NCBI RefSeq assembly: GCF_964275005.1 | Contig: NC_092690.1 | Span: 10,544,010 to 10,608,009, forward strand | DNA length: 64,000 nt | Source of the DNA: Diadema setosum | Taxonomy: Eukaryota; Echinodermata; Echinoidea; Diadematoida; Diadematidae | Direction: 5' to 3' | Shown here: piece by piece, positions 8,112-37,284 of the stretch | Position numbering within the stretch: the first letter of the stretch is position 1 | How the letters are laid out: every line of letters starts with the position of its first letter | Made by a program: the position numbers and the translations under genes | The notes under the pieces: generated by a model | What the model saw: the letters and a program-made list of their open reading frames with translations, nothing else | The model's database searches: none | What the model was told of the DNA's origin: nothing

Positions 8112-8399
8112 TCACAAGTCTACTTTATGTAGGTTATTCAAAAACCTCAAGACCTTTGGTGATAATGCCTTGTTATTACCAAGACCAGCAAACTGGTGTT
8201 GGTAGAGCAGAGGGGTATTTTTACCACTAAGTGGGTATTGTGCGGCATACACATAAAAGGAGGCGAAAGTGGCTGCAAACCCCATTGAAATACTTGAACA
8301 GCTCGCAAGCACTTCACCATCCATTGAGATATGTAGGTCGTTGGTGTCCAAAGGGTTGTTGCCTTGTATAATCAAACAAGGAGTTGGTACTACAGGTTC
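8112..8399 (-). CDS. Gene B exon 8, conserved C-terminal domain and stop
   Basis: The acceptor CTTTGTAG precedes GAACCTGTAG, and the frame is open for 95 residues to TGA. The block SISMGFAATFASFYVYAAQYP followed by LSPKVLRFLNNL matches the tail of SAMD3-like proteins (the 'AFCLLFGLIYALHLNYP...FIQ' region in fish members). The frame agrees with exon 7, phase 0. Confidence 0.75.
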   Translation of the reverse strand, partial: EPVVPTPCLIIQGNNPLDTNDLHISMDGEVLASCSSISMGFAATFASFYVYAAQYPLSGKNTPLLYQHQFAGLGNNKALSPKVLRFLNNLHKVDL

Positions 8400-11300
8400 C
8401 TACAAAGACATTTTAAGCAGAAAACAGACAGCCATGTCACATAAATATCGTCAAAGTTTCAAAACAATGTCTGGTTTAGATTAACAAAAAAAACAAAAAC
8501 AAAACAAACTTGAATATTTTTTCCAATTTGCAAAGAGTTTTTTTTTTTTTTTTTCTAAAATGCTTGGTCTTCTAGAGTGGGAATGTACATTTGTATCATT
8601 GAACCTATAATGAGAACTGTGTAACAATCAATTGTGCAAGAACATGAGCCCCTATATTTTGCTGTCTGTTATTATAATGCAACAATGTACCAAGTAGTTG
8701 AGTACTTGGATAAATGAAACAATTGGGATGAAAAAAATAAATCTAATTATCTTTATAAATAACAAACATGGATTTGTCATTTTTGTTCCATTTTGCCACA
8801 AACAGCACAACTAAACACAACATAGCTTCAAGGATGCTGACAACTTTGGATGACAGTCTACTTACAAAGAATTTTAGAAGTCAGTGGGATACAGGGTTGG
8901 CATTTGCCAGCTTAAATTTGCAGTTTTAAGCCTTAAGTGCTCTACACACCACAGGGATTTAATTGCATATGAATATTATGTAATGTATCTATCCTTTCTC
9001 TTCAATCCACATACCTTGTTGATAACATACATCAGGTCCTTTTCTCCCAGCAAGAGTGGAAGCAGGAGAGAACACGCATCCACAGTCAGATCTAATATAA
9101 CAAAAAAATTAAAGAATCTTACATTAATATCTGCAATATGCACTTAACTGTCACTTTGAAGTACAATTTGAGGGCTTCATTTCTAGACTTTATCATAGTC
9201 ACTATCAGAGAATTGAGGATGGTACAGTACTGTAGCTCTCAATTTCTTGCAGGGTGGTCATTGGTATTTTCATGTCTTTAAGAACATGTACAGCATACAT
9301 GTACTACAGATAAAGTATTTGAAAATTTAATGGTGTATTCTTAAATATTTCACCCAACTGAGTAAAGCACAATGTTTCCAGACTAAGCAAATAATTGGCA
9401 TTTTTACTATTGAAAGTTAATGTTCAAAGAATAATGGAATTTATTGTATACTTCATTTTACATGACCACTCGACAAAGTGCAAATGATTCATTCAATTTT
9501 TTTCTTTTTTTTCAGACAAAAACAAGCCTCTGCTATTTGACATTGTGACAAAGTATAACTTCCTTTCACTTTCAATGGATTTAACCAAAAATTGACTCTA
9601 CTCTAAAAATGCAGGGATAAGACAAATGTGACATAATGGAGTACAATGGAATCTCATTATAACAATTTTGTTTTATCAAAATGTTATGCCAAAGCTGCAA
9701 AGAACAATGGAATCCAAAGAAAATCCAAATTACTAGTCCAGAAAAACATGTTAAATAAAATTTGGTTGTATCATTGTTCATTGTAATGAGAGTCGACTGG
9801 TTATGAGTCTTTTTATATCAATGTTGTTTTTGTTTGTTCGTTTGAGATCCACTGTATGAAATGAACAAGATGAAAACATGTCTATGGCACCCTTCAGGTT
9901 TGGATAATTGCATCTACAAATTTTGCACAAATTGATAAGTTAATCTGCATTAGACAGAGTGACCCATGAACTACCGGCATAACATTTTCACAAATTCAAA
10001 CTTCACGCAAAATAATAGTTGTTATCTTACCATATTTGCAAAAGTTAAACAAAAAAAGTACATGTATCATTGGATTTCGCACCTTGTTTTTGCTTCTCTG
10101 AGGTGCACTCTTCATGCAGTGCTGTATAGGATTGAAGTATATCTGAGCAGTTGCTGTTCTTTCGAGCCAGGGCCATGATCCCATCTGCTGCCTCCAGGAA
10201 AAACTTGCATAGGAAAGCGTGGACATCCTTCCCCCCATATGCAGCCTGGAGTTCTGCCAAAAGCTGGAAAAGCACACAAAGAACAAGATACAATGTAGAA
10301 AGATAGACTGTACAAATGTGAGTGTTATGCTAACCAACAGTAGTATAAGAATATCCAGTTATAATCTTCATCTTATTTTTTCCATCACATGGACATTATC
10401 ATATATATTACTAACAAACGATACAATTGTAGTTTGTAACACCTAAATTACTCAAGAGCAATCCATTTTCCCTCATATTTGGAGTACATTTTCACAAAAT
10501 GTGTTTTGACACTCACAATGACAATTAAGTAGTATCCAGTCAGCTAAGTAGCACCATCTTACACGCACACAATATATGTAGGTCGCATTATCATCCAGTT
10601 TGGAAGTTATGAAATGACTCGCTATTGAAATTATATCCAAAATCCAAGTATAGCTCTGGTTGATCAGATGCAATTTTCGTCAATCTTTCTTTAGTATTCC
10701 ATTGTCACCCCAGAAAAAAGGAAAAGTAGAAATTACGCGGTGCGTAAAATATGTCCCCACCCGAAGTAGCATTTTAGTAGCAAAATGTACAATATAGGTA
10801 AAAAATCAAGGTCAAAGGTCAAAGAAGTCAAAGGTCAAAAATTTGTGTAGAAGTTTTGAAGCCCTCACCTAGTGCCATCACAAAAAGCAAACGGAATCGA
10901 AATCGGGTTAGAAATGGCGAAGGAGTAGCATTTTGTAGCCAATGTACAATTTAGGTAAAAAATCAAGGTCAAAGGTCAAAGAAGTCAAAGGTCAAAATTC
11001 TGAGTAGAAGTTTTGAAGCCCTCACCTAGTGCCATCACATAAAGAAAACGGAATCGAAATCGGGTTAGAAACGGCGAAGGAGTAGCATTTTGTAGCCAAT
11101 GTACAATATAGGTCAAAAATAAAGGTCAAAGGTCAAAGAAGTCAAAGGTCTAAATTCTGTGTAGAAGTTTTGAAGCCCTCACCTAGTGCCATCACAGAAA
11201 GCAAACGGAATCGAAATCGGGTTAGAAATGGCGAAGGAGTAGCATTTTGTAGCCAATGTACAATATAGGTCAAAAATCAAGGTCAAAGGTCAAAGAAGTC

Positions 11301-14300
11301 AACGGTCAAAATTCTGTGAAGAAGTTTTGAAGCCCTCACCTAGTGCCATCACATAAAGCAAACGGAATCGAAATCGGGTTAGAAATGGCGAAGGAGTAGC
11401 ATTTTGAAGCAAAATGTACAATATAGGTCAAAGGTCAAGGTCAAAGGTCACAACTGAAATTCTGTGTAGAAGTTTCAAAGCTCCCATGTAGTGCTATCAT
11501 ATAAAGCAAACAGAATCAAAATTGGCTCATAAATGACAGAGAAGTAGCAAATTGAACATTTTGATCACACACGGATGCACAGATGGACGGACGGACAGAC
11601 GGACGGACGGACAGACGGACACAAACACGTACGGAGCTAAGTAGCACCATCTTACACGCACACAATATATGTAGGTCGCATTATCATCCAGTTTGGAAGT
11701 TATGAAATGACTCGCTATTGAAATTATATCCAAAATCCAAGTATAGCTCTGGTTGATCAGATGCAATTTTCGTCAATCTTTCTTTAGTATTCCATTGTCA
11801 CCCCAGAAAAAAGGAAAAGTAGAAATTACGCGGTGCGTAAAATATGTCCCCACCCGAAGTAGCATTTTAGTAGCAAAATGTACAATATAGGTAAAAAATC
11901 AAGGTCAAAGGTCAAAGAAGTCAAAGGTCAAAAATTTGTGTAGAAGTTTTGAAGCCCTCACCTAGTGCCATCACAAAAAGCAAACGGAATCGAAATCGGG
12001 TTAGAAATGGCGAAGGAGTAGCATTTTGTAGCCAATGTACAATTTAGGTAAAAAATCAAGGTCAAAGGTCAAAGAAGTCAAAGGTCAAAATTCTGAGTAG
12101 AAGTTTTGAAGCCCTCACCTAGTGCCATCACATAAAGAAAACGGAATCGAAATCGGGTTAGAAACGGCGAAGGAGTAGCATTTTGTAGCCAATGTACAAT
12201 ATAGGTCAAAAATAAAGGTCAAAGGTCAAAGAAGTCAAAGGTCAAAATTCTGTGTAGAAGTTTTGAAGCCCTCATCTAGTGCCATCACATAAAGCAAACG
12301 GAAGTGAAATTGGGTTAGAAATGGCGGAGGAGTAGCATTTTGTAGCAAAATGTACAATGCAGGTCAGAAATCAAGGTCAAAGGTCAAAGAAGTCAAAGGT
12401 CAAAATTCTGTGTAGAAGTTTTGAAGCCCTCACCTAGTGCCATCACAAAAAGCAAACGGAATCGAAATCAGGTTAGAAATGGCGAAGGAGTAGCATTTTG
12501 TAGCAAAATGTACAATATAGGTCAAAAATCAAGGTCAAATGGTCAAAGAAGTCAAAGGTCTAAATTCTGTGTAGAAGTTTTGAAGCCCTCACCTAGTGCC
12601 ATCACAGAAAGCAAACGGAATCGAAATCGGGTTAGAAATGGCGAAGGAGTAGCATTTTGTAGCCAATGTACAATATAGGTCAAAAATCAAGGTCAAAGGT
12701 CAAAGAAGTCAACGGTCAAAATTCTGTGAAGAAGTTTTGAAGCCCTCACCTAGTGCCATCACATAAAGCAAACGGAATCGAAATCGGGTTAGAAATGGCG
12801 AAGGAGTAGCATTTTGAAGCAAAATGTACAATATAGGTCAAAGGTCAAGGTCAAAGGTCACAACTGAAATTCTGTGTAGAAGTTTCAAAGCTCCCATGTA
12901 GTGCTATCATATAAAGCAAACAGAATCAAAATTGGCTCATAAATGACAGAGAAGTAGCAAATTGAACATTTTGATCACACACGGATGCACAGATGGACGG
13001 ACGGACAGACGGACGGACGGACAGACGGACACAAACACGTACGGAGCCCGTTTCATAGTCCCCTGCTCGAACTCGTTCGGCGGGGACAAAAAGTAATCAA
13101 TTTCAAACCTACTGAAAATTGCTCACAGTGACAAATTATGTTTCAATCATCAGAGAACATGTTGTAGTATGTACATTACCTAATGAAAAATGCCAGAGGT
13201 CCCCCTCCCTATCCCATACATTATTAGTTTTGGGTGATTTCTCAAAAATGGGCAACTTCACGGCAAGTACTTTTCAGGGCTTTAATAGATCATATAGGTC
13301 TATCAAAACACATCATTAAATCTCTCTGCTGAGGCTGCATGTACTGTTACATGCATGCAATTATCATAATGATATGTCCTACAGACTCTTACCTGTGTTT
13401 CATTCTTCAAAATGGGAAATTCCTCAAGAATTTCTTTGACAGAATGTTGGGCAATAAAATCCATTCTATATCTCCTCGTTTTCTCCATCTTGTCCTTCAC
13501 AAGTGCCATATCTGGGTTCCTTTCGGCTGCCAACTGTTGTAACACCAGTGTGTCTTGATGCATGCTGACAGCATCTTCACCAGGTTGATTGGTCTATTAT
13601 GCAAAAGTTGTCGCAATCATAACTGAGATATGAATATGTTTAAAATTTGCTTTTATCAGTACAAACATTACCTTAGTTAAAATTACAAATTTAATCTATA
13701 TAGATTTTAACTAATCTAATTGAAATTTTTGATCAGAAATGATAGTTAGGGCCATATGATATTTTAATTAATAGACTATTCACCTGATGGAAAATTATAG
13801 CTATAAATCAAACCCAGATATATCATAAAAATGTACATGGTAAAATGAACTCTTCTTGCAAGTTATCACTTGACATTAAAGAATGCAAGCCTGGATCTCA
13901 ACATGCATCAGCCCTCACTTTTTTTCTTCTTTAATTCACATCCATGTGTGTGTGCATGTATATTTTCTTTCTGGGTTCTTGGGGGCAACCAATAGAATTT
14001 TTTCCATTTTGTAATATCCATCTCCAATTTCATTTGAGCTCTGATTACAAATATTTGATTGTTTAAATGTTACAGCCTTAACGTACATTTAAGACAAATG
14101 GTATGTCTTAAAATGAAATCATGTCATTTGGAATCTGGTGAGGCAATTAATGGTCAGTATGCTTTGTACAATGTATGCATATTAGCTAAGTGACACAAGT
14201 ACAGGGGATATGATACATACCTCTACAGAATCTCGCTTGGCACGTATAGAGGGTGGCTGATTCCGATCCACTGCAGCCTTCTTGTGGCCGTATACCTCCC

Positions 14301-17300
14301 TCTTCTTCAGAACATCGTTACTCTGCATAGGAGACCGCTCATATTTGAATTTGTTGATGAGTGACTCTTTCCAGGTATCCTTCAATGAAACATGAAAATC
14401 ATAACACAAGCAACAAAAAATGTACTTGCATTCATTACTCAACTAAAGGAATATACATATTATACATTGAAAAAAAAATCACTACAAATTGTCTACCTCA
14501 CATCCCCTTGGTGATTTCATGCACCTAACAAGGCCGATCTTGATCAAATGAAAAACACCTGGCATACATATACTGTACATGTACTACACAATTATACAAT
14601 TGTACAATCAGGTCCAATGAGGCACATCACAGTGTATGCAAGGGAAATCTATACTTACATATCCTGACGAATTCTGAGCTCTGTCCTTCAGTACAGGAAA
14701 TTTTGTAACCAGGGTACTGCACACAAATTTGTATTGTGATGGTGTAGGGTACCTGCAAGTACAGTACATACAAACTGTACATGTAAGCACAGTTTAATAT
14801 TTAAAATGCAAATACACTTAATGAATTCCAAGAATTAGAAAGTGTACTGACCTCACATTAGAGTTGTTTTTTTGTTTTTTTTTTACATTACACACTGATA
14901 GCGAAAAATAGTAAGCTGGTACTTCACAGCTTGCCATTCAATTTACACCATGTATTGTAAAACAAATACAGTTTTCATCTATTTAAAGAAGCAGTCTTCA
15001 ATTTCCCGAAGACACAAAACATACAATTGAAATGACAAATTCATTCTCATACAAGGACATGACAGTATCTTTAAATCTAATAAAATTCAAATAGTAACTG
15101 TTGATGAATCGAGAACTATTTCTGAGAAAAGTATAATATAGTACAATATTATAACTATACAGTAAAACCAAATTCTTGTACAATTAACTAAAAGCATTTG
15201 ATGAAGTAAGCTGATATTCGCATTTTCTTTTCTTTTTTTTTTCTTTTTTTTTTTTGTTATATTCACAACCACTGAAGGATGAATGGAACAAATCTGGAAT
15301 TAATATCTCAGAACTTTATGTCCCACAAAGACGATGTCCAATTGTACATGCACCTGCCTTTTTGAAAAGTTATTATATTAATGCAATGAATATCAATGTG
15401 AAGGATCTTTACAAACATTAACATTTCTTTATCAAACTCAGTCTCACCGTACGATAGATGTATGTATCATGTGTACATTCCTTTACTGGTCACACACATA
15501 CACAAAACAAAATATTGACATGAACAAGCTACAGTAAACAACATCAGAGAAAGTTTCCACATCACAAAAGTATTCCAAATTTGAATTACAATTTTCATGT
15601 ACATGTAACACGGATTAGAGAAACTGGTACAATATACTTACATTGTGCGTTGTGAAACATCCTCATATAACTTTTTAACTATTTTGGAGCGCCACTTCCT
15701 CTCGAGTACAATGGGGCTGTCCTCCTTCAATAGATTCCTCACATCAGCAGGCATTGTCGGTAGAGTGTAGTTCAAATGCCAGTCTGAGTCGACAGATGCA
15801 CATCTCTGAACAGGATTTCTGGAAGAGGAGCAATATGTGTACAATACATAAATCTGTGAACTCACTGCAGTCTTCTTGCACTAAGTGAATGGGATTTGTT
15901 GTGTGTGTGTATATATATTTTCTGTGAACATGTACACTTAACATTAACTTTAACACCAAACAAATAGTGATCTGTAAGACAGCACCACAATTTGAGCATA
16001 CTGGTACCGTCTAATAGGGTGCCCCGTCAGTGATGGTATACATCTGAAGTACTGATTGAGGTGAGGATTCAGCATTTAAGTTTTTCGAGGATACACTAGT
16101 TTAGAAACCAATGCATGAAACATTAAAGAGGATACAATCCTACAAGATAATGAAAGTTTACTTGATTAAAATAGGTTTTGAAATGGCTGAGATATCAACA
16201 ACAAAAAAAAAAAGAAAGAAAGAAAGAAAGAAAGAGACCCTTGTAACAGGTGGGTTCTACTTTTTTTTTTTAACACAGCTGTATTAGGATTGCTTTGTTG
16301 TGACAATCTCAGCCACGTCAAACCAATTTTCGTCAAATAAACTTTGAATTCCTCTCAGAATTACATGTTCTTTTATATTTCAGAAGAGGTTTATCATTAT
16401 TTAAATCTAACAAAAAAAAAAAAAAAAAGTTGGACACCTGAAACCCCTCTCAACTAAAACTACACAACTGTATACCATCCCTTCAAAGGTACAGGCCTTA
16501 CAAGACTATGTACAAACATTTGTACAATGCACATGAATAGCAACACCCACTACTGGTGGTTTTCACCTTCTACCTTGTACAATTTGTACATGATGTACAT
16601 TGCGATAACATACTGCAAAACTTAAACTGCATAATAGCACACATAGTACCAAAAGACAGCCACTGAAGGATCAATGGAACAAATCTACAATCCCACAATT
16701 AGAATGCAAAATAGACCAGATTGTACATTGTAATTTCATTTTGTGCAGGAGCAGAATAAGGTCATTTGTACCAACAGACAGTTTGGCTTCTTAATTCACT
16801 GAAATACAATGTATAAAACAATTGTGATATGATGACTATTCATGAGATCCTTATCTATGGTGCTTGTTAGCACATCCATCTGACAAGAAGCTTGGTATTT
16901 GGTAATATCAAAAAGTTGCTATTGCATTCAATACAAAACAACGAAATGGACGCCTGTTAAATTGTCAACTGATGGTCAATTCTTGTCCACATCACAAAAA
17001 ATATTTCACATTTAAATAAAAATACAATTGTCAGATACCATGGATTAGAAAAAAATTAGAAATGTCACTATGGCGACTGGTATGCCTCCGCCATAATGCA
17101 TGGTTCTCCTAATAGGTCTATAGTACATGTGGACAATGTGTGATTACATTTTCATAAAATTGGCAAAATATTAAAATGACAAGTTGGTCACAAATGTGTT
17201 GAATGTTCACCTTCCTTGACCTAGGTTTAATTGGATAAATAGGAGAGCATGTTTGGAGATTTAAGAACTTTAACTTGACTTTGATCCATTCATACGTTTA

Positions 17301-18470
17301 TGCACTGTGTAATTTTCAAGGTATGGAGAAAAAGTGCAATTTCTGTATTGAATAGTAAATTGTTGCCATTTTCAAGTGGCCTTTGACCCTAAAATTCATA
17401 TTAAGATAATCACTGTCAGGCAGAACATGCATAAATATGTAGTAAGTTTCAAGACAACTTGAATCATTTCCTAGATATGGAGGAAACAGTTAGTTCAGCA
17501 CTTTCACTTCATCTTTGTTCTTTTGACTTTTGAGGCAAAAACAAAGAAAATGAAAAAAAAAAAACTTCCCAGAGAATCTCTATTGGGTTATACATGCATA
17601 CACCAAGTGGTAAAAAAAAATAATCCTAACCCATGAACCCTAAATTCTCTAGATAATCACTGCCAGTCAATACTACTACATATGTTCCATGAAGATACCT
17701 TGAACAATTTCCAAGGTATAGAGAAAAAAAGTGAAATTTTAATATTTTACTTGACCTTTTGACCTTTAACCTTTAACCTCATGACCTGAAACTTTCACCA
17801 GAGAATCTTAATTGTGTAATACATGTATAGACTAAGTTTCACGAAAATATCTTCAGGCAATGCATAGATATGGAGGAAATAGTGAAATTTTACATATTTG
17901 ACCTTGACCTTTTGACCTTTGACCTTGAGCATGTGCACTCAAAAGTTGATAGGCACAACTTCACCCCGTAATACACATACATGCCAAGTTTCATTAGGAT
18001 ATCTCAAAAGGTGTTTTAGTTACGCTTGCCACAAAATTCATTACGGACGGACGGAAGGACGGACGGACGGACGGACAACCCGAAAACATAATGCCTCCGG
18101 CTCCACTTCATGGCGGAGGCATAAAAAACAACAACCTTTGTAGTACAATATACATTGTACAAATACATTGGAATGTAACTTACTGAGATGTTGGAGTTTG
18201 GGACATTTCTTCATCTTGCTGCTGTTCCACATCATTGTTTTCTTGAACAAGTACTTGTATCTTGGATTTGTTAGGTGGCAAATCCTGGTCAAGGTCGATC
18301 CAATCACTCCAGTCCTCATTGTAGACCTGAATAATTGGAACACTACAACAGTCGTCTCTGGAAGCTTAAATGTCTCCTTCATCTTCTTCAAGAAACTCTT
18401 AATGTTGCAGTCATTCCCCACTGCGACTATCTTTTTTGATTGGCAGCATGACACATGGTAACGCAACATC
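8112..18470 (-). CDS. SAMD3-like protein, eight-exon gene B (span)
   Basis: Exons in order of translation: B1 18470-18184, B2 15818-15642, B3 14752-14659, B4 14379-14221, B5 13593-13393, B6 10263-10083, B7 9091-9015, B8 8399-8112. Every junction has AG/GT signals, and all phases match through to a TGA stop, giving about 484 codons. B1 is PB1/ubiquitin-like (IQVYNEDWSDWIDLDED in the second copy). B2-B4 carry the family motifs LPTMPADV, LYEDVSQ-TM, YPTPSQY and DTWKESLINKFKYER. B8 holds the conserved tail, ending in LRFLNNLHKVDL. This is the large fish/invertebrate family annotated as SAMD3-like; no SAM domain is visible. Cellular function is unknown. B1 of this copy is 8 bases longer than in the second copy (18184-18470 versus 55802-56080), which shifts the frame. 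So either this copy is damaged or translation starts downstream. Any 5' exon upstream of B1 was not found. Confidence 0.75.
9015..9091 (-). CDS. Gene B exon 7
   Basis: This 77-base exon lies between TTATATTAG and GTATGT. Joined to the single G left by exon 6 it reads DLTVDACSLLLPLLLGEKD and then LMYVINK. This matches the family segment in which a leucine-rich 'LP.LL.ED' motif is followed by a short phenylalanine/valine stretch. The exact phase agreement on both sides supports it despite its size. Confidence 0.7.
9642..9855. mobile_element. Pogo/Tigger-like MITE in gene B intron
   Basis: The left end is TACAATGGAATCTCATTATAA and the right end, inverted, is TACAGTGGATCTCAAACGAAC. Ends of the form CAGTGGAACCTC with TA target sites are typical of pogo/Tigger-type elements. 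No coding capacity. The inverted similarity is diverged, so this copy is old. Confidence 0.4.
10083..10263 (-). CDS. Gene B exon 6
   Basis: It is preceded by GCTTTTCCAG and followed by GTGCGA. It encodes LLAELQAAYGGKDVHAFLCK followed by FFLEAADGIMALARKN. In related SAMD3-like proteins this region links the charged central part to the C-terminal domain. It starts in phase 0 after exon 5 and leaves one base for exon 7. Confidence 0.72.
10541..13092. mobile_element. Tandem-repeat Helitron/Helentron-type element, family 2, copy 1, internally duplicated
   Basis: The core element runs from about 10717 (GAAATTACGCGGTGCG, then TGTCCCC) to 13092 (CGGCGGGGACAAAAA). Inside are head-to-tail monomers of 157 bases, recognisable by GAAGCCCTCACCTAGTGCCA, followed by a (GGAC)n microsatellite and a 3' hairpin (CCCCTGCTCGAAC...GTTCGGCGGGG). 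Inverted TGTCCCC-GCCG ends, a monomer core, an ACGG-type microsatellite and a terminal hairpin match the known 'pearl'/HINE type of non-autonomous Helentrons. Positions 10541-11636 and the segment beginning at 11637 are a nearly identical tandem duplication of about 1.1 kb that includes 5' flanking DNA. The second unit has about two extra monomers. Confidence 0.65.
13393..13593 (-). CDS. Gene B exon 5
   Basis: 67 codons, phase 0 on both sides, between TGCATAATAG and GTAAGA. It is charged and probably helical: ERNPDMALVKDKMEKTRRYR, then IKEILEEFP-type sequence. The corresponding fish segment has 'MTLVHQKMNLTFSLRRREIV...IKDIMERWPALF', which this matches in order and spacing. Exons 5-8 have no counterpart in the second gene copy. 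Confidence 0.75.
13594..14187. other. Intron 4 of gene B up to the duplication breakpoint
   Basis: AT-rich, with no feature recognised. Homology to the second gene copy begins at 14188, so the left breakpoint of the segmental duplication lies inside this intron, between exons 5 and 4. Confidence 0.5.
14221..14379 (-). CDS. Gene B exon 4
   Basis: 53 codons in phase 0, between TCATTGAAG and GTATGT. DTWKESLINKFKYERSP is the family signature in which a tryptophan/leucine helix precedes a lysine/arginine-rich segment (KKREVYGHKKAAVDRN). The basic stretch could be a nuclear localisation or nucleic-acid contact region, but that is inference only. Confidence 0.8.
14659..14752 (-). CDS. Gene B exon 3
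   Basis: 94 bases between ACTTGCAG and GTAAGT. It completes an ATG codon across the splice junction and reads YPTPSQYKFVCSTLVTKFP, then VLKDRAQNSSGY. The order 'TM-YP...Y..V...L...FP.LKD' is diagnostic of SAMD3-like proteins. The equivalent unit in gene A is exon A5. Confidence 0.8.
14760..15641. other. Intron 2 of gene B
   Basis: AT-rich sequence homologous to 53559-54260 in copy 2 but about 200 bases longer near its left end. It contains a poly-T tract at 15230-15256 and nothing I can name. Confidence 0.5.
15642..15818 (-). CDS. Gene B exon 2
   Basis: 177 bases between CTCTTCCAG and GTAAGT. It encodes WHLNYTLPTMPADVRNLLK, followed by KLYEDVSQRTM across the next junction. This is the 'LP.FP..V...L' block that starts the conserved body of SAMD3-like proteins. 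Copy 2 lacks one codon here (CASDSDW versus CASVDSDW). Confidence 0.8.
15819..17055. other. Intron 1 of gene B, distal part
   Basis: Intronic DNA homologous to copy 2, with (AAAG)n at about 16204-16235 and several homopolymers. No gene or named repeat was recognised. Confidence 0.45.
17056..18125. mobile_element. Helitron/Helentron-type non-autonomous element, family 1, copy 1
   Basis: This insertion is present in gene copy 1 only; the empty site is at about 55740-55752 in copy 2. It starts TTAGAAATGTCACTATGG with TGCCTCCGCCA just inside, and ends in a hairpin GCCTCCGG...CGGAGGC followed by ATAAAAA. The interior has degenerate repeats built on CAAGGTATGGAG and runs of TGACCTTTTGACCTTT. A (GGAC)n microsatellite lies at 18043-18076. 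Inverted subterminal repeats, a microsatellite and a terminal 3' hairpin inserted in an A-rich tract fit the HINE type. There is no Rep/helicase coding, so it is non-autonomous. Confidence 0.6.
18184..18470 (-). CDS. Gene B exon 1, PB1-like domain, copy with 8-base insertion
   Basis: It follows GTGTTTTCAG and ends at GTAAGT. The in-frame ATG is its second base, so either translation begins here or an unseen upstream exon precedes it. It reads MLRYHVSCCQSKKIVAVGND, then SFLKKMKETFKLPETT. Here an extra 8 bases relative to copy 2 shift the frame away from the PB1-like remainder. The downstream half of the domain (DWSDWIDLD, IQVLVQENND, EEMSQTPTSQ) is still encoded in the other frame. The gene is otherwise intact, so this is the only obvious lesion in copy 1. 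Confidence 0.72.
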
Positions 18471-18506
18471 CTGAAAACACAATTAAACAGTGGAAAGAGA
18501 CCACAG

Positions 18507-21500
18507 AGGGGCAATTCCACGGTAACTAACGTTACGCGTAAGGATTTTCATGAAATTGTTTACGTTGTAGTTTTGTGAATGAAAGCACCTGGGGCTTGCA
18601 ATTAGCATTGATGAATGAGTTCATGAGAATGAAGAAATAGGTGGAAAGTTTTTCTCTCAAACTGCATTTTTTATCACATACTTTGTAGCAAGTGAAAATG
18701 TGTCGGTAACTGATGTTACGGAAAAAGGACATGGGGAAATTATGGTGTAGATTTAAATGGAAATATCTCATGTCCCTGGCTTCTAGCCTTTATGTGTTTA
18801 ATATGGCAATACACCTAGGTTCTTAGGAACAGGTGTGCAAAATAATGTGCACTTTAGATATTTCCTTTTCGCACCATGCCAATTTCAGTGAAGGCATGAC
18901 GGTAACTGATGTTACGCTTACATTTGCCATAGGGTTTACACATGCAAAATCATGATTGGGAATAGTTTTGTGATATTTTATAATTCTGACCTTTCAGAAT
19001 GATTTGTTTGATATGGCATCATACCTTGGTTCATCAATTATAAATACACAAATGAAACGAAACATTCGTCCATTTTCTTTGTGTTCTATGAAAACTTAAA
19101 GGTAAACATATCAGTAACTGATGTTACACATACATTTGCTATGGGGTTTACAGAGAACTAATTCATTCAACAGGTTATTCCTGCTGCAGTATACCAGTAA
19201 CAATCCCAGGCAATTACTTAGCAAAAAATTAAAACAAAATCTAAAGACACAAATTGGGTGGGGCCCTTAGGGGGCAACCCCCCCCCCCCCCAATGCCATA
19301 GCACAGTTGGGCAAAAATAATGTAAATGCACCAGAGGATATTTCTTGACATTTGTCTTAAGATTGAATGCTTATTCAACAGTTATGATTACACAGAGCCA
19401 TTTAGATTCAGCAGTTCCAAGTATAGATATATTGACATATGATAACTAAGGTGTTTTTTTTTTTTTTTATGAACAGGAAAGTTTCTATCTACAGTGCCCC
19501 ACCCATAATACCCTGCAGTACTACACAAAACACGGATATTTCTGTGTGTGAAGAAAATATCTTTCAGGTCATGGGAAAAAAAAAAACACATATCAACTCA
19601 TAAATATGCATGAATATGTATGAAATCTACTGTGATATAAAATATTTCTTCTTCTTTTCTGTATTTTACTCCTTCTCCTTCAAGGCATTGTTAGGGCCAT
19701 AAATAAATTAAAAAATGATCTCCATCATCAATTGATTTAAATGAAAAGTGTTGCACTTTTAATATTTCTCTGTGAAGAAGAAACATTATGCTTTTTTGGT
19801 CAAAAGAGCATTATTGGTTTATTCCTTGCTTGAAGTAATATAACTGTTTTCTTTTCCTTTTCACTGATGTATCAAGGCTTGCAAATACATCCCAGATACC
19901 AAGAAATAGGACTTTGCAACGAAAAAATACTAAGATCAATATAAACGAATCTTCCTGTTCATAATTATCATGTATTACAAAATGTCCCTGTAAAGTAATA
20001 AACAAATATGAACATTTTTTTTTCCCCTAGAATCACCTAGACTCACTTTGAGCAACATCAGTGTTAAACATTGAGCAACATCAGTGTTAAGTTTCAAACA
20101 GTAATGACAGTACATGCCTTATGTACCATAATACAAGATGTGCCACATTTACTAAACCACACATTTAAGTGCAAGCGAAGAAATATATCTGTTTGTGCAT
20201 TTGCCTTGAGGTAGAAACTTCACTAAGCTTCCAGAAAAGAAGAAAAATGCTAGCAAAAGCAATCATAAGTAAAGATTATAAAACTGTTGGTATACAGCTG
20301 TACACAAGCTTTTGTATCGAAAAGGTGGTTACCATGCAACCACGTCATTGATTAGGCCTACAAACTTTGGTAGCTTTATCATCCCGTAGGACTGTGAATG
20401 TAATGTATCTAATTTGAGTGCATATATTGCATGTGGTAAACCTAAACTTCCAGATGATTTAACCTTAAACTTGTGCTGAATCGAAAATCAAAACCTCAAG
20501 CCCCCCCCCCAAAAAAAAAGATAATTATGATACATAAATAAATAAATAAACTTTTAAAAAATGAAATAAAATGAAAAAAAAAATGTATCCATGGACGTAC
20601 CATAGTGATGACATCATTCCCTATCAAAGGGATTGCTGCTCTATGTTGATAATCTTTGACTTCCCATATGTATTGAAATGGCCTTAAGTCAAACAAGGAA
20701 AAGTAGAAATTACGCGGTGCGTAATATATGTCCCCGCCGGAAGTAGCATTTAGTAGCAAAATGTACAATATAGGTAAAAAGATCAAGGTCAAAGGTCAAA
20801 GAAGTCAAAGGTCAAAATTCTATGTAGAAGTTTTGAAGCCCTCACCTAGTGCCATCACATAAAGCAAACGGAATCGAAATCGGGTTAGAAATGGCGAAGG
20901 AGTAGCATTTTGTAGCCAATGTACAATATAGGTAAAAAATCAAGGTCAAAGGTCAAAGAAGTCAAAGGACACAATTCTGTGTAGAAGTTTTGAAGCCCTC
21001 ACCTAGTGCCATCACATAAAGCAAACGGAATCGAAATCGGGTTAGAAATGGCGAAGGAGTAGCATTTAATAGCAAAATGTACAATACAGGTCAAAAATCA
21101 AGGTCAGAGGTCAAAGAAGTCGAAGGTCAAAATTCTGTGTAGAAGTTTTGAAGCCCTCACCAAGTGCCATCACTTAAAGCAAACGGAATTGAAATCGGGT
21201 TACAAATGGCAAAGGAGTAGCATTTTGTAGCAAAATGTACAATTTAGGTCAAAAATCAAGGTCAAAGGTCAAAGAAGTCAAAGGTCAAAATTCTGTGTAG
21301 AAGTTTTGAAGCCCTCACCTAGTGCCATCATATAAAGCAAACGGAATCGAAATCGGGTTAGAAATGGCGAAGGAGTAGCATTTTGTAGCCAATGTACAAT
21401 ATAGGCAAAAAATCAAGGTCAAAGGTCAAAGAAGTCAAAGGTCAAAATTCTGTGTAGAAGTTTTGAAGCCCTCACCTAGTGCCATCATATAAAGCAAACG

Positions 21501-22592
21501 GAATCGAAATCGGGTTAAAAATGGCGAAGAAGTAGCATTTTGTAGCCAATGTACAATATAGGCAAAAAATCAAGGTCAAAGGTCAAAGAAGTCAAAGGTC
21601 AAAATTCTGTGTAGAAGTTTTGAAGCCCTCACCTAGTGCCATCATATAAAGCAAACGGAATCGAAATCGGGTTAGAAATGGCAAAGGAGTAGCATTTTGT
21701 AGCAAAATGTACAATATAGGTCAAAGGTCAAGGTCAAAGGTCACAACTGAAATTCTTTATAGAAGTTTCAAAGCTCCCATGTAGTGCTATCATATAAAGC
21801 AAACAGAATCAAAATCGGGTTAGAAATGGCGAAGGAGTAGCATTTTGAACATTTTGATCACACACGGACGCACGGACGGACGCACGGACGGACACACGGA
21901 CGCACGGACGGACACACGGACACACGGACACACACACACGTACGGAGCCCGTTTCATAGTCCCCTGCTCGAACTCGTTCGGCGGGGACAAAAATTTGCCT
22001 CAGTTATAATTACTGTCATGGTAACTGACGTTACATACTCATGTATGACGTTTCGGTAACTGACGTTACACATTTTAAAGTGTTCATTTTGACTCTCCAG
22101 TATGCCAAGTATCCTTATTTCTGGTATTAAAAGAAAGGCATATGGGCATACATTAGAAATCCAAAGTTACATCATACAGCTCACTTTCTTTGATGAATAA
22201 AGTTAAAAATTTCATGTTTTTGGTAACTGACGTTACATCCATCACTGTCAAACTAATTAAAAGTTTTCATCAAATTCTGTAAAGCAACCAGCTTTTTTTT
22301 CTATCGTGTGGTAAAAGACTTCTCTGGTAACTGCATACATATAAAAGATTGTTGTTTAGAGTACTAGTAAAGTGGATATACAGAGAGTAAGTTATGTGAC
22401 AATACACTCTTTTTACCATTGAGTTATAGGCATATTTTGGCAGCCATTTTGAAAATCAAAATGGCCGCTTTTATTGAAAAACATAATGATTCTTAAAACT
22501 TCAACTCAAGTATTGTCTGAAAATGCATGGTGTTTGAAACAAATATCATTTTGAATTTTTGACACCTGTGTCCTATGTACCGTGGAATTGCC
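18507..22592. mobile_element. 4-kb DNA transposon with palindromic subterminal repeats
   Basis: This insertion is present in gene copy 1 only; the empty site reads CCACAGCTATAAATG in copy 2 (around 56111-56125). The termini are GGGGCAATTCCACGGTAAC and, inverted, GGGCAATTCCACGGTAC. A target duplication of 2-3 bases (AG or CAG) fits. The palindrome GTAACTGAYGTTAC recurs near the left end (about 18522, 18705, 18902, 19113) and near the right end (about 22020, 22055, 22222), but not in the middle. This is the layout of transposase-binding sites. No transposase is encoded, and a family 2 element is nested inside (20695-21993). Superfamily not assigned. Confidence 0.7.
20695..21993. mobile_element. 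Family 2 tandem-repeat element, copy 2, nested
   Basis: It has the same ends as the 10717-13092 element (AAATTACGCGGTGCG and TGTCCCCGCCG at the left, CGGCGGGGACAAAAA at the right). It carries about seven 157-base monomers, then an ACGG/CACACGG microsatellite (21868-21935) and the same terminal hairpin. It lies inside the 18507-22592 transposon, so it is younger than that insertion. Confidence 0.68.
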
Positions 22593-23099
22593 CAGCTATA
22601 AATGCATGTAGTGTCCAGGAGGATAACGCATAATGGCTATACACTGGTTGTGTACGGATGTACAAGTGTACAGTACATGGCTATGTACAGTACCTCACAA
22701 GCTGATTGACGGTCCATACAAGGCATCTAAATCCATTTAACTTGAAAATTACTACAATTATTTTGAAGTTTATGTGAGCACAATTCATTAAATGGGCCAT
22801 TCCATGGTTTTTAGACATAGCGCTTTTTTGAGGGAGAGTTACAAGTGTAAATGCATTCAACCTCTCCGTATTGATTCAATTGTTTTCAATGTTACAAATA
22901 CTGTACAGTCTCAGGCCTAAAAATTACCATGATTACGGAGATAAATAAAATGTAAATAAAAATAATATATTTGCCTTACTGAGGTAAAATTTGTTATTGA
23001 CAGAGAGCTAAAGGACAAGGCGTCTGCCTTTCTGGATGTGTAGCAAATAACTTTACTGATATTACCTGCAGGCATGTAATTGTTGGATTTAGACACATG
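22593..23099. promoter_or_regulatory. Upstream region of gene B (duplicated)
   Basis: It is homologous to 56114-56630 and lies directly upstream of exon B1 in the ancestral arrangement. It is AT-rich. No TATA box or initiator can be singled out. It is listed because any first exon or promoter of gene B should be within this segment or in the composite element beside it. Confidence 0.3.
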
Positions 23100-23740
23100 T
23101 GTGATGCATAATATCACTTGTATACAAATAATCTTACACAGGTGAGAGTGCGTTCGTGGAGATGTAGCGCATTCGAGGGTATTTACAATTGTGAAACATG
23201 CACGAGGCGAAGCCGAGTGCATGTTGCACTACATTGTAAATACCCGAGAGTGAGCTGCATCTCCACTAACGTCACAAACTCAAACCTGTGTATTATTTGA
23301 TTTTTGAAATGGGTCGAAAACTTAAACAGCATTTTTCATGTACCTTTGTGGGTCAATGCCAGTCAGCTACATGTAGCACTCGCTCAAAAGTCAAGATGTC
23401 CGAAGATGTTCGTCCCAAACATTTACGCACGTCGCACTCGGAAATCCCGCACATAGTACTGTACGTATGAGAGTATACGTACGCCACATGTTATGGCACA
23501 AGAAAGGCCGGCTGGCAGCCCGAACTAGAAGTTGTTTACAGGATTGACAGTGCGTAAAGTAGTGCGCAAAGCACTTGTAACAACTGATTGAGTGTGCACT
23601 GCTAGTGTAAACATTGTGACGTCAGTGACTTTACGCTTTTTTGCACGGCAGGCCGGCCCGTGCATGTTCATAAGAAAATCATGCACGCACACGTGACTCA
23701 TTTCAGTGCTTCCAATTGGCTACATTCTTGAACCCATTTG
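23100..23740. mobile_element. Composite hairpin MITE, copy 1 (part of the duplication)
   Basis: The first part is a long hairpin: GCGTTCGTGGAGATGTAGCG pairs with the inverted GAGCTGCATCTCCACTAACG around a GCACGAGGCGAAGCCGAGTGC loop. The rest runs to TTCTTGAACCCATTT. Other copies are at 51250-51838, 56640-57280 and, inverted, 31679-32262. In the better copies the second part has TTATAAAATGGGT at both ends and the hairpin part has ACAAATGATGCACAGGAT at both ends, so two MITEs appear joined and mobilised together. Confidence 0.6.
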
Positions 23741-23956
23741 GATACTGCTTGGATACTGCTTGGTAAAAGGTACTAAATGGGTGCAAGATTTAAAAGCAGG
23801 TAAACCCATTTGCACCTCTCAATCATCACTTGTGTACATGCCCTGTATGAAGGACATGTCTGTGATATTTGAAGATCAGTAATTACTGTACAGCTGAAGA
23901 TAATCAAATTCAGTGAATGTCCCCCCCCCCCACCCAAAAAAAAACAAAACAAAAAA

Positions 23957-25659: not shown

Positions 25660-26234
25660 CTAGTATAAATCATGCTTGCGTCTCCTTGACTCCAATATAT
25701 GATGAGCATCTAAGTTTCCTCTCCACAAAAAAAGCCAAAATCAGAAACAACAGTATCTTAATCTGGTCAGGAACCAAAAACGAACTTTAGATAGCAAAAT
25801 CTTCCGTGAAAAGCAGGTGAAATTTACGTAAATTCAACTGATTATAACGTCATGACAAGAACCGATATTATACGCAAATTTGTTATCAAAATAAAGATCA
25901 AAGTCTGGAGAACAACTTATCGTGACTTGTAACCATAATGAATGCATGTAAACGTCGCTGCACTGTGAAAACCAAAGCCCTGTCAAACTCTCGCAAAATC
26001 TCGCACGCAAGAGACACCTTCGGAACGCAAAGATCGTCAACGAGAGTGCTGAATAAATCTTGCCGGATCGGCTCATTAGCATACGTGCTGCGGACTGACT
26101 GGTACATGTATATCACTTTCTTTGCGCGACATCTGCACTCCTGTGCAGTGCGCGAAAAAAGTTGAATGCCACGTGACACGTTTTGACCAATCACCATGCT
26201 TGAAATAGGCTAGATATTTTATAAAATAACTTAC

Positions 26235-26319
26235 ACAGCCTTCTGCACTGTGGTCCCTGAGGCTGGGAAACTGTGTGACTAAAGCCTTGGCAAGAGATGA
26301 CTTCACATCACTGGCAGGA
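26235..26319 (-). CDS. Gene A exon 5, SAMD3-like segment
   Basis: 85 bases between TTCCTTCCAG and GTAAGT. With two bases from exon A4 it reads Y-PASDVKSSLAKALVTQFP, then SLRDHSAEGC. It corresponds to gene B exon 3 (YP...FP.LKD), so gene A carries a paralogous SAMD3-like middle part. It ends in phase 0. No gene A-specific exons follow on the minus strand before gene B starts. Confidence 0.7.
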
Positions 26320-28225: not shown

Positions 28226-28439
28226 TCATGTAGAGAGACGGCATGGGGACCGTTACAATATACAATGCACGTGTGTGCACACAAATTACTGCGTTTAGAA
28301 CAGACTCTGCAGAATGGGATATAGTGAAAATTTGGTTTTCAATGTTTCGTTAATCGTGTGTTTACAAGCGGTAGGTCAAGAAATTGAACCTCATTGTATC
28401 CAATCAGATTGCTTATGTTTTTCTTTATCATGGTGCACC

Positions 28440-29208: not shown

Positions 29209-29351
29209 TACCAGCCATAATTCTTGACAAGATGATCGACCAGAATTCTGACCAGAGAATGTCTGACAGCAGTTGATGGTTTGTCCTCTGTCTCCAGTTC
29301 ATGCATAACACTTCGCCCGGAAGAGTGCTTCCCAAGAATATCTCTGATATC
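29209..29351 (-). CDS. Gene A exon 4, SAMD3-like segment
   Basis: 143 bases between TTCCATACCAG and GTAAGT. It encodes DIRDILGKHSSGRSVMHELE, then STAVRHSLVRILVDHLVKNYGW. This is the conserved start of the SAMD3-like body ('DV.DIL...G..LL..FE...LS...R..LV.LVV..I...G'). It leaves two bases that combine with exon A5 into a tyrosine codon, matching the family's G-x-YPS motif. It corresponds to gene B exon 2. Confidence 0.72.
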
Positions 29352-30210: not shown

Positions 30211-30236
30211 TAGCAATGTGAAGCTCACAAACTTAC

Positions 30237-30437
30237 AAACTCAGGCACAGGATCTGGCGGGAGCGAGCGATCCAAGGTTGATAGAGAGCTGGATGGTGGG
30301 TGTCCCGGAGACGGGGCAGCATTGAGGTCAGACGGAGGAGATTGAGAGTCTCCACACATTGAGTCACTGGGAGGACTTGGTAGGTCATTCACCTTTTCCA
30401 TCATGTAGGTTATCCCATCTGGCAGTTCCACTTTGAT
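30237..30437 (-). CDS. Gene A exon 3, proline/serine-rich linker
   Basis: 67 codons, phase 0 at both ends, between GTGTGTCAAAG and GTAAGT. It starts IKVELPDGITYMMEKVND, which could be the end of a beta-rich domain. It then becomes SPPSDSMCGDSQSPPSDL-type low complexity. No motif is recognised. It joins the SANT exon to the SAMD3-like exons in frame. Confidence 0.6.
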
Positions 30438-31678: not shown

Positions 31679-32262
31679 TGTTATAAAATGGGTTCAAGAA
31701 TGTAGCCAATTGGAAGCGCTGAAATGAGTCACGTGTGCGTGCATTAATTTCTCACTAACATGCACGGCCTGACTCACAATGTTTACACTAGCAGTGCGCA
31801 CTCAATCAGTTGTTACAAATGCGTCGCGCGCTACTATACGCGCTGTCAATCCTGTAAACAACTTCTAGTTCAGGCTGCCAGCCGGCCTTTCTTGTGGATA
31901 CATGTGGCGTACGTATACTCTTATACGTACATGCTCACAGTACTTTTATGTGCGGGATTTCCGAGTGCGACGTGCGGAATATGTTTGGGACGAACATCTT
32001 CGGACATCTTGACTTTTTGACTTGAGCTAGTGCTACATGTAGCTGACTGGTATTGACCCACAAAGGTACGTGAAAAATGCTGTTAGTTTTCGACCCATTT
32101 TATAAAACAAATGATGCACAGGATTATTTTGTGGCGTTAGTGGAGATGCAGCTCACTCTCGGGTATCTACAATGTAGTGCATGTTTCACAATTGTAAATA
32201 CCCTCGAGTTGGCTATACATCTCCACTAATGCACTCTATCCTGTGCATCATTTGTATATTAA
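31679..32262. mobile_element. Composite hairpin MITE, inverted copy
   Basis: Reverse-oriented copy of the element at 51250-51838, from TTATAAAATGGGTTCAAGAA to CCTGTGCATCATTTGT. Both sub-ends are preserved, so it helps define the element. Confidence 0.6.
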
Positions 32263-32697: not shown

Positions 32698-33372
32698 CCC
32701 AACTGGAAAACTGTTCCTGCTTTCCTCCACACTATCATCCTCCTGATCTTCATCTGGAGGAAAGTTGTCAAATTCTGCCTGTCCTGAACTGGACATGTTG
32801 GGTCCAAAGTTCTCCCCATTCACATCAGAGTCTGCTCCAGTTTGGAGGGCTAATTTCCTGAGTAAGATTGGGTCCTCCTCTCCCAGAACAGAGTGTAAAA
32901 TTTGGTAACAGGGTCCGACTGTAATGCATCCTTTCTTCTTATTTTCTAAGCGAGCAATGCGATAATTCTGTTTGCACTGCTCGAGCTTGACTCGGAGCTG
33001 TGAAGCTGAGCGAGGGAAGCCAGCTCTATGCATGGCTTCAGACAGAGATTGGTAAACGCGAGCATCTTGTACCGTACCATCCAATCTCTCCTGTACGGCC
33101 TTACTGCTCCACTGTTTCAGAAGGAAGCGGGTCTCATGATCAGACCAGTTACTTGTAGTGCCATGACCTGCCAGCATTCCCCCTGCAGTGCTTGGTGCAG
33201 AGATCACTGAGCTGGGCTCACTGGTGGTTGGAGCACTGGGAGCAGGAGTAACATTAACAGGGACAAACCGCTGTGCAGGGGTACTAGAGGAGCTGGACGT
33301 AGTAACAAGTGAGGCTGACAAATCAGGGCTTGCCCGGCTGGAGGCAGCTGCTGATGTTCGTACAGCGGTGTG
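32698..33372 (-). CDS. Gene A exon 2, Myb/SANT-like DNA-binding domain
   Basis: 225 codons, phase 0, between GAATTCCAG and GTAGGT. The first ~85 residues are serine/threonine/proline/alanine-rich. The next ~90 form a Myb/SANT-like domain of the Myb_DNA-bind_4 (GT-1) type: NWSDHETRFLLKQWSSKAV, then VYQSLSEAMHRAGFPRSASQ, then QLRVKLEQCKQNYRIARLEN. These show the tryptophan at the start of helix 1, the 'G...S..Q...K...LK..Y' third-helix pattern and the trailing basic helix. The C-terminus is acidic (PPDEDQEDDSVEE). The product should be nuclear and DNA-binding. The domain is common in transposon-derived host factors. Confidence 0.75.
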
Positions 33373-34406
33373 CTGGAATTCATTTTGTATCAAATAAAAG
33401 ATAAATCTGTGATTTAGTCTAGTGTAATAACATTCATATATTCATGATTGACTCATAAAATAAAAAAAATCACGAGAGCCTCCTCTTATCTTGACACAAA
33501 TTCCTGAATATTTGTTATTCTTTACAAAGTCTTTAGAAAATACACCACAAAACCTTGTATGCTCTATATCGTCGCCCGTCACACGAACCGACAAATCCCT
33601 CAGGTTTGCATAAGAATGACAATTCGAGAAAATTGCGTTTGAAGTTAAAGATAATAAAAAGTTTTGGTACCTCAAAAGTGTCCTTGAATTTCCTTGTCTT
33701 AGTTTGTGTTTCAGGTTAAAGTACCTTTCATATAACTAACACTGTGAGACTTACTCGCCCCAAAGTGCTCTCATGTCTTAGTAATCATGCAATTAACTGC
33801 GATCAGCAGCCCCATGCGCATAGCGACCAGCAGTCCCATACGCATAGCGTAATCGGGCTTCGCATTGTAGCATTCAGGATCATGACAGATTTAGTATCGC
33901 AGGGTAAATGTCAACTTAAAATCCCATAAATTCGTCAATTTGAAGACTTACCAATTAAGTTGAAGTATTGAAAACAGGCTTCGGGCAACGTTTGGTTCTG
34001 TCTATAGTCTCTTTCTGTTCGAATTGATGACTGAATGTGACTCGGTCGACAGGACCTTAGGAGAGCTACACAGTACACTGAATACTACAGCCACTGCATG
34101 CGAACACATCACATGCACACAGATTTCAAATCCATGAACGGATACGATGTTTGTGTGCGCATGCACTGGCCATGGTATCCAGTGTATGTAGCTCTCCCAA
34201 GGTCCTCTCGACCGAGTCACATTCAGTCATCAATTCGAACAGAAAGGGACTATTGGCAGAACCAAACGATGTTCGAAGCCTGTTTTCAATACTTCATCTT
34301 AATTGGTAAGTCTTCAAATCGAAGAAATTTTTGGATTTTAAGTTGACATTTACCCGCGATACTAATTCTGTCATGATCCTGAATGCTACAATGCAAAGCC
34401 CCATTA

Positions 34407-34846
34407 GGCTGCTTTCACATAGAAGTATACTATTCGGGTATTCGGGCTCGTTTTTCGAGGGCACGCGAATAGCTTGAATCGAACGATAGGATTTCCTCAC
34501 ACCGGTTCACATAAGAGGGCACTATTCGAAAGTACCGAATACCTGCGAAAAGTATAGCAAAGTGGGAATCGAGCTTGTTCGATTTTCTTGCAGCGTATAC
34601 CGTCTCTCGTTTATGAAATAATGACACTTTTGTTCTGGATTTGCCCGTTAGCAAATATAAGCACGTAGACCGACATTCTGATGCAGTTTAGAAATTGTTA
34701 ATAAGATTTGCTGCGATGTAGGAGGAAGAAATCCTCACTACATGGGATGGTGAGTTGACGGTGCGGGTGATGGTGTATTCGGTGCTCGAATAGCGAATAG
34801 CGAATAGCGAATAGCGAATACCGAATACTTCTATGTGAAAGCAGCC
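34407..34846. mobile_element. MITE with 3-base TTA target duplication
   Basis: The ends are GGCTGCTTTCACATAGAAGT and its exact inverse. TTA lies on both sides (34404-34406, 34847-34849). A 3-base TWA target duplication is typical of PIF/Harbinger. It includes short tandem CGAATAG repeats near 34790-34825. The interruption is evident from the intact left arm of the host foldback element. Confidence 0.78.
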
Positions 34847-34885
34847 TTACGCTATGCGTATGGGGCTGCTGGTCGCAGTTAGCTA

Positions 34886-35092
34886 CTGTAAAAGTGGATA
34901 TTTTCGCGGGACTAATTTTTCGCGCTAGGCCGGGTCAGAAGAGTTTCGCGTGTTTTTAATTCCGCGGAATCAAGACAGCACGCACAGGAACGTATGGCAA
35001 GCAAAAATATTCGCGTTTTAATTTTCGCGCTAGTTTCTGGTTGCGCGAAATGCGCGAAAATTTCAACACCGCGAAAATTTCCACTTTTACAG
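34886..35092. mobile_element. TA-flanked MITE, CTGTAAAAGTGG family, copy 1
   Basis: The ends are CTGTAAAAGTGGATATTTTC and, inverted, CTGTAAAAGTGGAAATTTTC, with TA outside each end (34884-34885, 35093-35094). The interior is rich in TTCGCG. A TA target fits the Tc1/mariner group. A second copy is at 47399-47797. Confidence 0.75.
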
Positions 35093-36224
35093 TATGCGTA
35101 CAATGGGCTGCACGCTGCTGGTCGCAGTCAGTGGTTTCGTACAATATTTATCGACGCTGTACAGCGTCGGCTCTGGTACGAAACCATTATTGCATGATTA
35201 CTAAGACATGAGAGCACTGTGGGGCGAGAAATTCTCACAGACAACGTACTTTAACCTGAAACACAAACCAAGACAAGGAAATTCAGGGAAGCTTTTGAGG
35301 TACCAAAACTTTTTATCATCTTTAACCCATTTTTGACTTATGGTTGCTACACTTTCATGTCTATAATTTCCAATTATTTTTGTAGTACATCAGACTTCAA
35401 TTCTTGCTCTAACTTGTGAAGTTTTTATCGAATTGTATTGTTAACAAATAAGCGGGAAATCGTCAAAGAGCTGCATGCATGTATTTTCGGTCTGCAAAGA
35501 ACGTTGTCATTTTCCATGTGTGTCCATATGTACATGTACATTGAGCGTTGTTATTGTCAACGCATGTATTACATAGTACGCGCACTGTGCGCATGGTCAA
35601 TGAACTGTTGAATCTCAAAAACTACATGCAAGTCAATGCGCACTGATTCGTCGGTTCGGTGACCGCGCGTACTAGAAAACTAGTACGCGCAGTCACCGAA
35701 CCGTCGAATTGCCTGATTGTTTGACACACGCGTCTATGGGGAAAACAAATAATTTTCACAAATGGAATTACATGCTTCTACAAAAGTGATAACTACGTAA
35801 AAATTACACCGAATTACACACTGAGAATTTCAGAATATGTAGTATGGAACGTCTACTATCGAAATGATTGAAAATCTCAAAATCGAAAATTTGACCCAAA
35901 ATCGAGTGATTCGTCGGTTCGTGTGACCGGCGACGATATAATCCTTTGATACAATTGTGAAATTGCGAAAAAATGTCACGTGACCAACACCCCTGAACCG
36001 ATTGATGACGCATAAGCACGGAGTTGTGCTCAGTTAGCAGACGCCGCTCAGCACTAGCACTTAGATTTACTAGCTTGGTACACGCGCATACACGTTAGCT
36101 AGCCCGGCCAGGCCCGGCGCCCGGGATGTGCGCTCCCGGTCGATCCACTGACTGTCGACATGTATGCATATCACGTACATTATCACTAAGTTAGCTTGCA
36201 CAAATACCTGGTACCTCAAGCATA

Positions 36225-36499
36225 ATGTCTTCCCCTATATGGGTAAACTTTGACATTGATGATGATGATGATGATGAAGAATGCAGCTCTGACGATAGCG
36301 GAGAAGAAGAGGAGGCACATGAAGTTGAAGGGGAAGATGGGGAGGGAGAGGCGGCCGATGAACCAGAACGTTATCGTGGGGCTGCACCTTACCGATATGA
36401 ACCAGCTGCATTTCCCGCTGCCAGTGCAAGAGCGTATGAACATGGCACCAAGTCCGAGAATAGACCTCACGGAAACGATCGCCTGGGAAATACAGAGTG
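36225..36499 (+). CDS. Orphan first exon of a P2X7-ballast-like protein
   Basis: The ATG opens MSSPIWVNFDIDDDDDDEE, followed by an acidic stretch, then APYRYEP and HGNDRLGNTEW, with a GTATGT donor directly after TGG's first two bases. In the P2X7 C-terminal (ballast) domain family an acidic leader, 'PY.FEP' and 'R..NTDW' precede the cysteine-rich C-x-C-x2-C segment encoded by the next exon. No such next exon is visible downstream, where transposons begin at 36724. CpG-rich DNA upstream (35.9-36.2 kb) would suit a promoter. The paralogue at 61047-62035 retains the cysteine exon. Confidence 0.55.
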
Positions 36500-36936
36500 G
36501 TATGTGTGGTTTGCCCCCATAGTTTAACATTAGAAAGGATAAACAGTATTCTACATGATTGACACTGTAAGTTGTAACTGTTTGTCTAGTAAGTAGTAGA
36601 AGAACAGACCCAGCTCGCTCACGAAGTGAGCCGCTACTCCGGCCGCCGCAAGCGGGAGCGTCCCAGCTGTGGCCTGGCCTGTTGGCCGGCGCTAACAAGT
36701 TAAACTAGTACCGGTAGTAGTAGCAGGCTTTCAAGCGGGATAGTGTAAAAAAGTAGGAATAAAGTAGGAACAGAATCTCTGAAAAAGTAGGAAAAAGTAG
36801 GACATGAGAGGGAAAAAGTAGGACATTAGAAAAAAAAGTAGGAATAAATCAGGACATGTGCAGGCTTTTTGGAGTAGTTTTTGTCGATACTCACCAGAAC
36901 TCTTGATGTTACAAATAAATCTTAATTTGTACTCAC

Positions 36937-36976
36937 AACCCTGCTGCCTCAGCCTCACTTTTGCTCCTGGGAGAGC
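36937..36976 (-). CDS. Candidate small exon upstream of gene A
   Basis: A strong acceptor (TTGTATTTTTCAG) and two alternative GTGAGT donors (after 36937 or after 36895) bracket a short frame reading SPRSKSEAEAAG or ALPGAKVRLRQQG. It is on the gene A strand and upstream of the SANT exon, but it lies inside the possible 36724-45197 element and has no homology support. Confidence 0.3.
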
Positions 36977-37284
36977 CTGAAAAATACAACAAAGGCAGAC
37001 ATTCATTAGAACAACGTAAGGAAACAAACACAAATGCATGTTCAACCGTACAGGCGATATAAATCTTGATAACTTACTACAATACTTGCATAGAAAAGAC
37101 ATCATTCTGTGATTGACATGAACACCTTCCATATACAATAGTATGTGACCCTGCATCACAACACCAACAAAAAGTCGCTAGACATGAATTTTTAGTTAAG
37201 AGCAGATTCTGAAAGAGCAAACTTTAAGCTTTAAAATGATGTATAACTCGATTCAAATGATTTCTCCTAACCTATCCTAATATT

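Follow-up and report, generated by a model that had tools for sequence, protein, structure and literature searches.

The variable units of UGT1 and GCNT2 each have a distinct promoter of their own, and the variable region of UGT1 consists of one large first exon (PMC1885805). The usual pattern among conjoined genes is the skipping of the last exon of the upstream gene and the first exon of the downstream gene (PMC2953495). The present analysis concerns a locus of the echinoid Diadema setosum that invites comparison with both, and which lies in a stretch of 64,000 nucleotides (nt) of NCBI RefSeq assembly GCF_964275005.1 (contig NC_092690.1, positions 10,544,010 to 10,608,009 of the forward strand; hereafter the window, which contains no undetermined bases, N). 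Three front halves, those of genes C, A and B in that order, and a single back half (exons B5–B8) lie in the window on one strand throughout, and A and C are most likely truncated front-half duplicates of a fast-changing gene family. According to an earlier reading of the same DNA (the original prediction), SANT and PB1-like fronts could share the back half of gene B by splicing.

All three genes are on the minus strand, and their exons were rebuilt from the sequence by splice signals and reading frame. Those of gene B are:

18184..18470, minus strand: B1, first coding exon, frameshifted in comparison with C1 by 8 inserted nt near 18350
15642..15818, minus strand: B2 (splice signals and frame)
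14659..14752, minus strand: B3, the A5 equivalent (splice signals and frame; homology to A5)
14221..14379, minus strand: B4, proposed as the first exon to be shared (acceptor in phase 0)
13393..13593, minus strand: B5, first back-half exon without a copy elsewhere in the window (splice signals and frame; self-search)
10083..10263, minus strand: B6 (splice signals and frame)
9015..9091, minus strand: B7, a short exon of 77 nt (found by frame and phase)
8112..8399, minus strand: B8, terminal exon with the stop codon (splice signals and frame)

Exons B4–B8 form one intact back half, with no stops or frameshifts. The 8 nt in B1 (TGTTGTAG) are absent from C1, and with this insertion B1–B8 runs into stops. 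This difference between B1 and C1, at 18343–18350 of the minus strand, has near-repeats on its flanks (CGACTGTT GTAGTGTT), which might be the imperfect footprint of a transposon excision. In gene B, a 4.1-kb insertion with a satellite array in it separates B1 from the DNA that corresponds to the sequence directly 5' of C1. No poly(A) signal (AATAAA or ATTAAA) occurs within 2.5 kb of even the B8 stop, so that this signal is uninformative about where the genes end.

When the window was compared with itself, positions 14188–18506 and 22619–23956 were found to recur at 51856–57490 with about 89–96% identity, and this second copy carries gene C:

51856..57490, no strand assigned: duplicated segment, C side (matches 14188–18506 and 22619–23956)
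55802..56080, minus strand: C1, an intact B1 duplicate that lacks the 8-nt insertion (homology, frame)
54261..54434, minus strand: C2, a B2 duplicate shortened by an in-frame deletion of 3 nt (homology, frame)
53459..53552, minus strand: C3, duplicate of B3 with donor GTACGT (homology, frame)
51889..52053, minus strand: C4, a B4 duplicate with 6 additional nt, in frame, and an intact donor (homology, frame)

Exons C1–C4 (56080–51889) are about 95% identical to B1–B4 and their splice sites are intact. The C-side copy breaks off 33 nt into intron 4, and queries with B5–B8 found no second copy of these exons within the window. With its break in intron 4 and no C5–C8 in the window, gene C demonstrates that a front-only copy arose here by duplication. 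A partly palindromic repeat of about 500 bp is present in four copies (23137–23625, 31681–32181, 51258–51837 and 56667–57153), the third of which lies about 20 bp beyond the end point of the C duplication and could have contributed to the breakage.

The clear exons of gene A, which lies between the other two, and one candidate for its end are:

32698..33372, minus strand: A2, Myb/SANT-like exon (Pfam PF13837; open frame; donor GGG/GTAGGT)
30237..30437, minus strand: A3, Pro/Ser-rich linker exon (open frame; both ends in phase 0)
29209..29351, minus strand: A4, initial part of the domain that A has in common with B2 (acceptor at the 99.9th percentile, donor GTA/GTAAGT)
26235..26319, minus strand: A5, last clear exon and B3 equivalent (acceptor at the 99.6th percentile; donor TGT/GTAAGT at the 93rd percentile; phase 0)
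25898..26140, minus strand: candidate private terminal exon of A (80 codons and a stop, after a 94-nt intron following A5; acceptor at the 99.4th percentile)

Exons A2–A5 are all open, with no stop and no frameshift. A2 matches Pfam PF13837 (Myb_DNA-bind_4) at an E-value of 1.6e-13, with 51.3 bits against a gathering cut-off of 27. Its acceptor is weak (31st percentile), which makes the 5' end of gene A uncertain, and A2 may be the initiating exon, given this weak acceptor and a first in-frame ATG (33177) placed just 5' of the Myb domain. Taken together, A4 and A5 can be aligned with B2 and B3 over a stretch whose last residues are LVTxFPxLxD; the local score is 48, whereas shuffled sequences average 23.5 (z 5.8; reached by 0 of 2000 shuffles). 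Genes A and B are therefore relatives, and the phase-0 boundary that follows A5 and B3 was inherited. The anatomy described in the original prediction is borne out by these results. The boundaries that it placed at 26235 (end of A5) and 14379 (start of B4) are exact and both in phase 0; A2–A5 do comprise a Myb/SANT front and a part homologous to B2–B3, ending in phase 0 at the A5 donor; B4 does follow the exon equivalent to A5, as the homology of A4–A5 to B2–B3 confirms; and the back half that it saw downstream of A on the same strand is intact from B4 to B8 and in one open frame with A5. Gene C and the 8-nt frameshift in B1 did not figure in it. A search of 26233–18560 for a private continuation of A, in the form of a phase-0 exon with a W..L..R motif like that of B4, found none, and B5–B8 used as queries against the window gave no sensible match at an E-value below 5 to diverged A6–A8 or C5–C8.

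The genes are taken by us to be SAMD3-like on family features such as the YP...FP.LKD region and the C-terminal body, a label that the databases neither supported nor contradicted. The SAMD3-like family is a multi-copy one of fishes and invertebrates, with an N-terminal domain, a conserved YP..FP.LKD region and a C-terminal body; C1–C4 joined to B5–B8 would resemble it in the order of parts and in the motif YP...FP.LKD being split between exons, a likeness to the family in general and not to any database member. Searches for membership of this family gave no match in Pfam, NCBI or PDB, and no relatives of these genes were found in viral contigs, prokaryote genomes or phages; a search of the literature on the family yielded nothing useful. 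The PB1-like label of B1 and C1 is likewise our assumption and could not be confirmed: these exons have no Pfam match and no PDB sequence match, and the low-confidence model of C1 has a predicted local distance difference test (pLDDT) score of 54.7, its best fold matches, LC3 and the PB1 domain of NBR1 among them, being not significant (E-values above 5). The predicted structure of B8 was too poor for a fold search.

Joining A2–A5 to B4–B8 yields a single frame that stays open for 669 codons, and joining C1–C4 to B5–B8 yields one of 485 codons. The joins of A5 to B1, B2 or B3 break the frame and were ruled out. Since B1 is frameshifted relative to C1, the in-frame PB1-like front for the back half is that of C and not that of B. 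The original prediction, which had a common C-terminus following either the SANT front or the PB1-like front of B, is thus structurally feasible in its first part, the A5 join being in frame, and needs amending in its second, where the PB1-like front would be that of C. Judged by reading frame, the back half is accessible from C4 or A5, and from the start of B only if translation begins 3' of the frameshift.

The evidence points to A and C probably being front-only paralogues in a birth-and-death family of SAMD3-like genes, of which B kept the back half. The family would be fast-evolving and multi-copy, its members having exchangeable N-terminal domains (Myb/SANT or PB1-like), and partial duplication with rearrangement in a transposon-rich region would have left the front-half paralogues A and C. 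Gene A would have lost, or never have acquired, exons 6 onwards; B would be the sole carrier of a back half and would have lost the frame of its own first coding exon only recently; and the in-frame junction of A5 and B4 would be a by-product of the intron phase of a common ancestor. Our inference is that the back half of B is spliced to neither A nor C. The opposite arrangement, in which constant exons would be fed by alternative promoters at C, at A and formerly at B, through joins of C4 to B5 and of A5 to B4 or B5, is unlikely, even though one back half stands behind three same-strand fronts, each of the two joins keeps the reading frame open, and C1 keeps contiguous upstream DNA that in B is displaced by 4.1 kb. 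The acceptors of B4, B5 and B6 are all in phase 0 and A5 is homologous to B3, so the phase match of A5 and B4 is little evidence of sharing. Good acceptors would have to be passed over, from A the three of B1–B3, which stand at the 95th–99th percentile, and from C all those of A and of the B front; introns of 11.9 kb (A5 to B4) and about 38 kb (C4 to B5) would be needed, whereas most of the introns here measure 0.9 to 3 kb; and structural fit seen in sequence does not by itself demonstrate splicing. A truncated dead gene A had been put forward in the original prediction as the simpler alternative, and truncation is indeed better supported than sharing by splicing.

Several observations nevertheless weigh against A and C being mere front-half remnants. 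The most suggestive is the broken front of B with its intact back half, the strongest hint of sharing, although it would look no different if the mutation in B were recent or polymorphic. The others come from the preservation of reading frames. In the front exons of B and C, the substitutions look neutral and the indels look constrained. Non-synonymous changes number 17.5 and synonymous ones 3.5 (non-synonymous rate, dN, 0.032; synonymous rate, dS, 0.025), which is close to the neutral proportion, so that strong amino-acid constraint on both copies is unlikely; in this comparison of B and C without an outgroup, a pair with only one of its copies under constraint is indistinguishable from two free copies. 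The introns have diverged by 4.7% and have many small indels, and from their rate 8.9 frame-breaking gaps would be expected in the exons, where one is observed (P 0.001), or one against 4.9 when simple repeats are excluded (P 0.04), which argues that the frame was kept after the duplication. Had gene A (1104 nt) been dead since the split of B and C, 3.8–7.0 frame-breaking indels would be expected in it at these rates in one lineage and none is seen, the chance of which is 0.02 to 0.001; A is therefore either in use or was truncated later than that split. Such intactness would be accounted for if gene A ended in the private exon 26140–25898 and specified a short Myb/SANT protein with a tail of its own, without the SAMD3-like back half and unrelated to gene B. 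The strong acceptor of this exon, 94 nt past the A5 donor, does open its 80 codons in frame, but the codon score (0.006) is at the non-coding edge, fifth of 88 non-coding open reading frames and below most true exons, the opposite strand is likewise open over the same stretch, and the peptide has no likeness to B4 or to any database family; this ending of the gene is similarly improbable. It is far less probable that faulty assembly has set C and B in tandem although they are the alleles of a single locus, which would make the third front an artefact. An intron identity of about 95% with many small indels would suit a very heterozygous animal, yet the window is free of N, only about 5.6 kb is common to the two copies, both flanks differ, and gene A and about 28 kb lie between them.

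The window has several other features besides. Between C and A, the plus strand holds a long interspersed nuclear element (LINE) with an uninterrupted reading frame of 999 codons (37479–40478), which specifies an endonuclease and a reverse transcriptase (Pfam E-values 1.7e-8 and 3.7e-40) and looks like a young insertion. A retroelement at 599–4639 (plus strand) has a reverse transcriptase and a 1.1-kb direct repeat (730–1834 and 3535–4639, 98.6% identical) with coding sequence inside the repeats, and is reminiscent of a Penelope-like element that has partial copies in tandem. Two arrays of a 157-bp satellite unit (plus strand) occupy 10765–12959, in the intron between B5 and B6, and 20742–21847, upstream of B1; the latter falls within the 4.1 kb absent from C. 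Upstream of C, an open stretch of 193 amino acids (58679–59260, minus strand) includes a conserved-looking segment (...FHYLIHYHRLISEMGPLRNFWCMRFEAKHQYFK...) and had no Pfam match; it is apparently an exon of another multi-copy or transposon-derived gene.

It is quite unlikely, on what the sequence offers, that the locus is modular, with multi-exon fronts of C (PB1-like) and A (Myb/SANT) spliced over long range to one back half while B1 is dead. If it were, a single C-terminal module would be directed to DNA in one form and to a protein-assembly domain in the other, and partial duplication would have made an ordinary gene into a variable-front cluster with multi-exon fronts. If the back half is not shared, the locus would be debris of partial duplication that imitates such a cluster, and a warning that phase agreement between homologous exons is no evidence of splicing. 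Like conjoined genes and read-through chimeras, it has adjacent same-strand genes with exons that could be joined in one transcript; in contrast to them, gene A is without a terminal exon that might be dropped, and the join would pass over three exons of B. In common with variable-first-exon clusters, several same-strand fronts (C, A and B) lie 5' of constant exons, B5–B8 being single-copy in the window; in place of a single first exon free of competing upstream acceptors, each front has four exons with acceptors. The locus differs from UGT1 in these four-exon fronts, whose good acceptors would have to be skipped, and is like UGT1, GCNT2 and the clustered protocadherins in its tandem fronts on one strand, its one downstream set of back exons, and the birth and death of its fronts.
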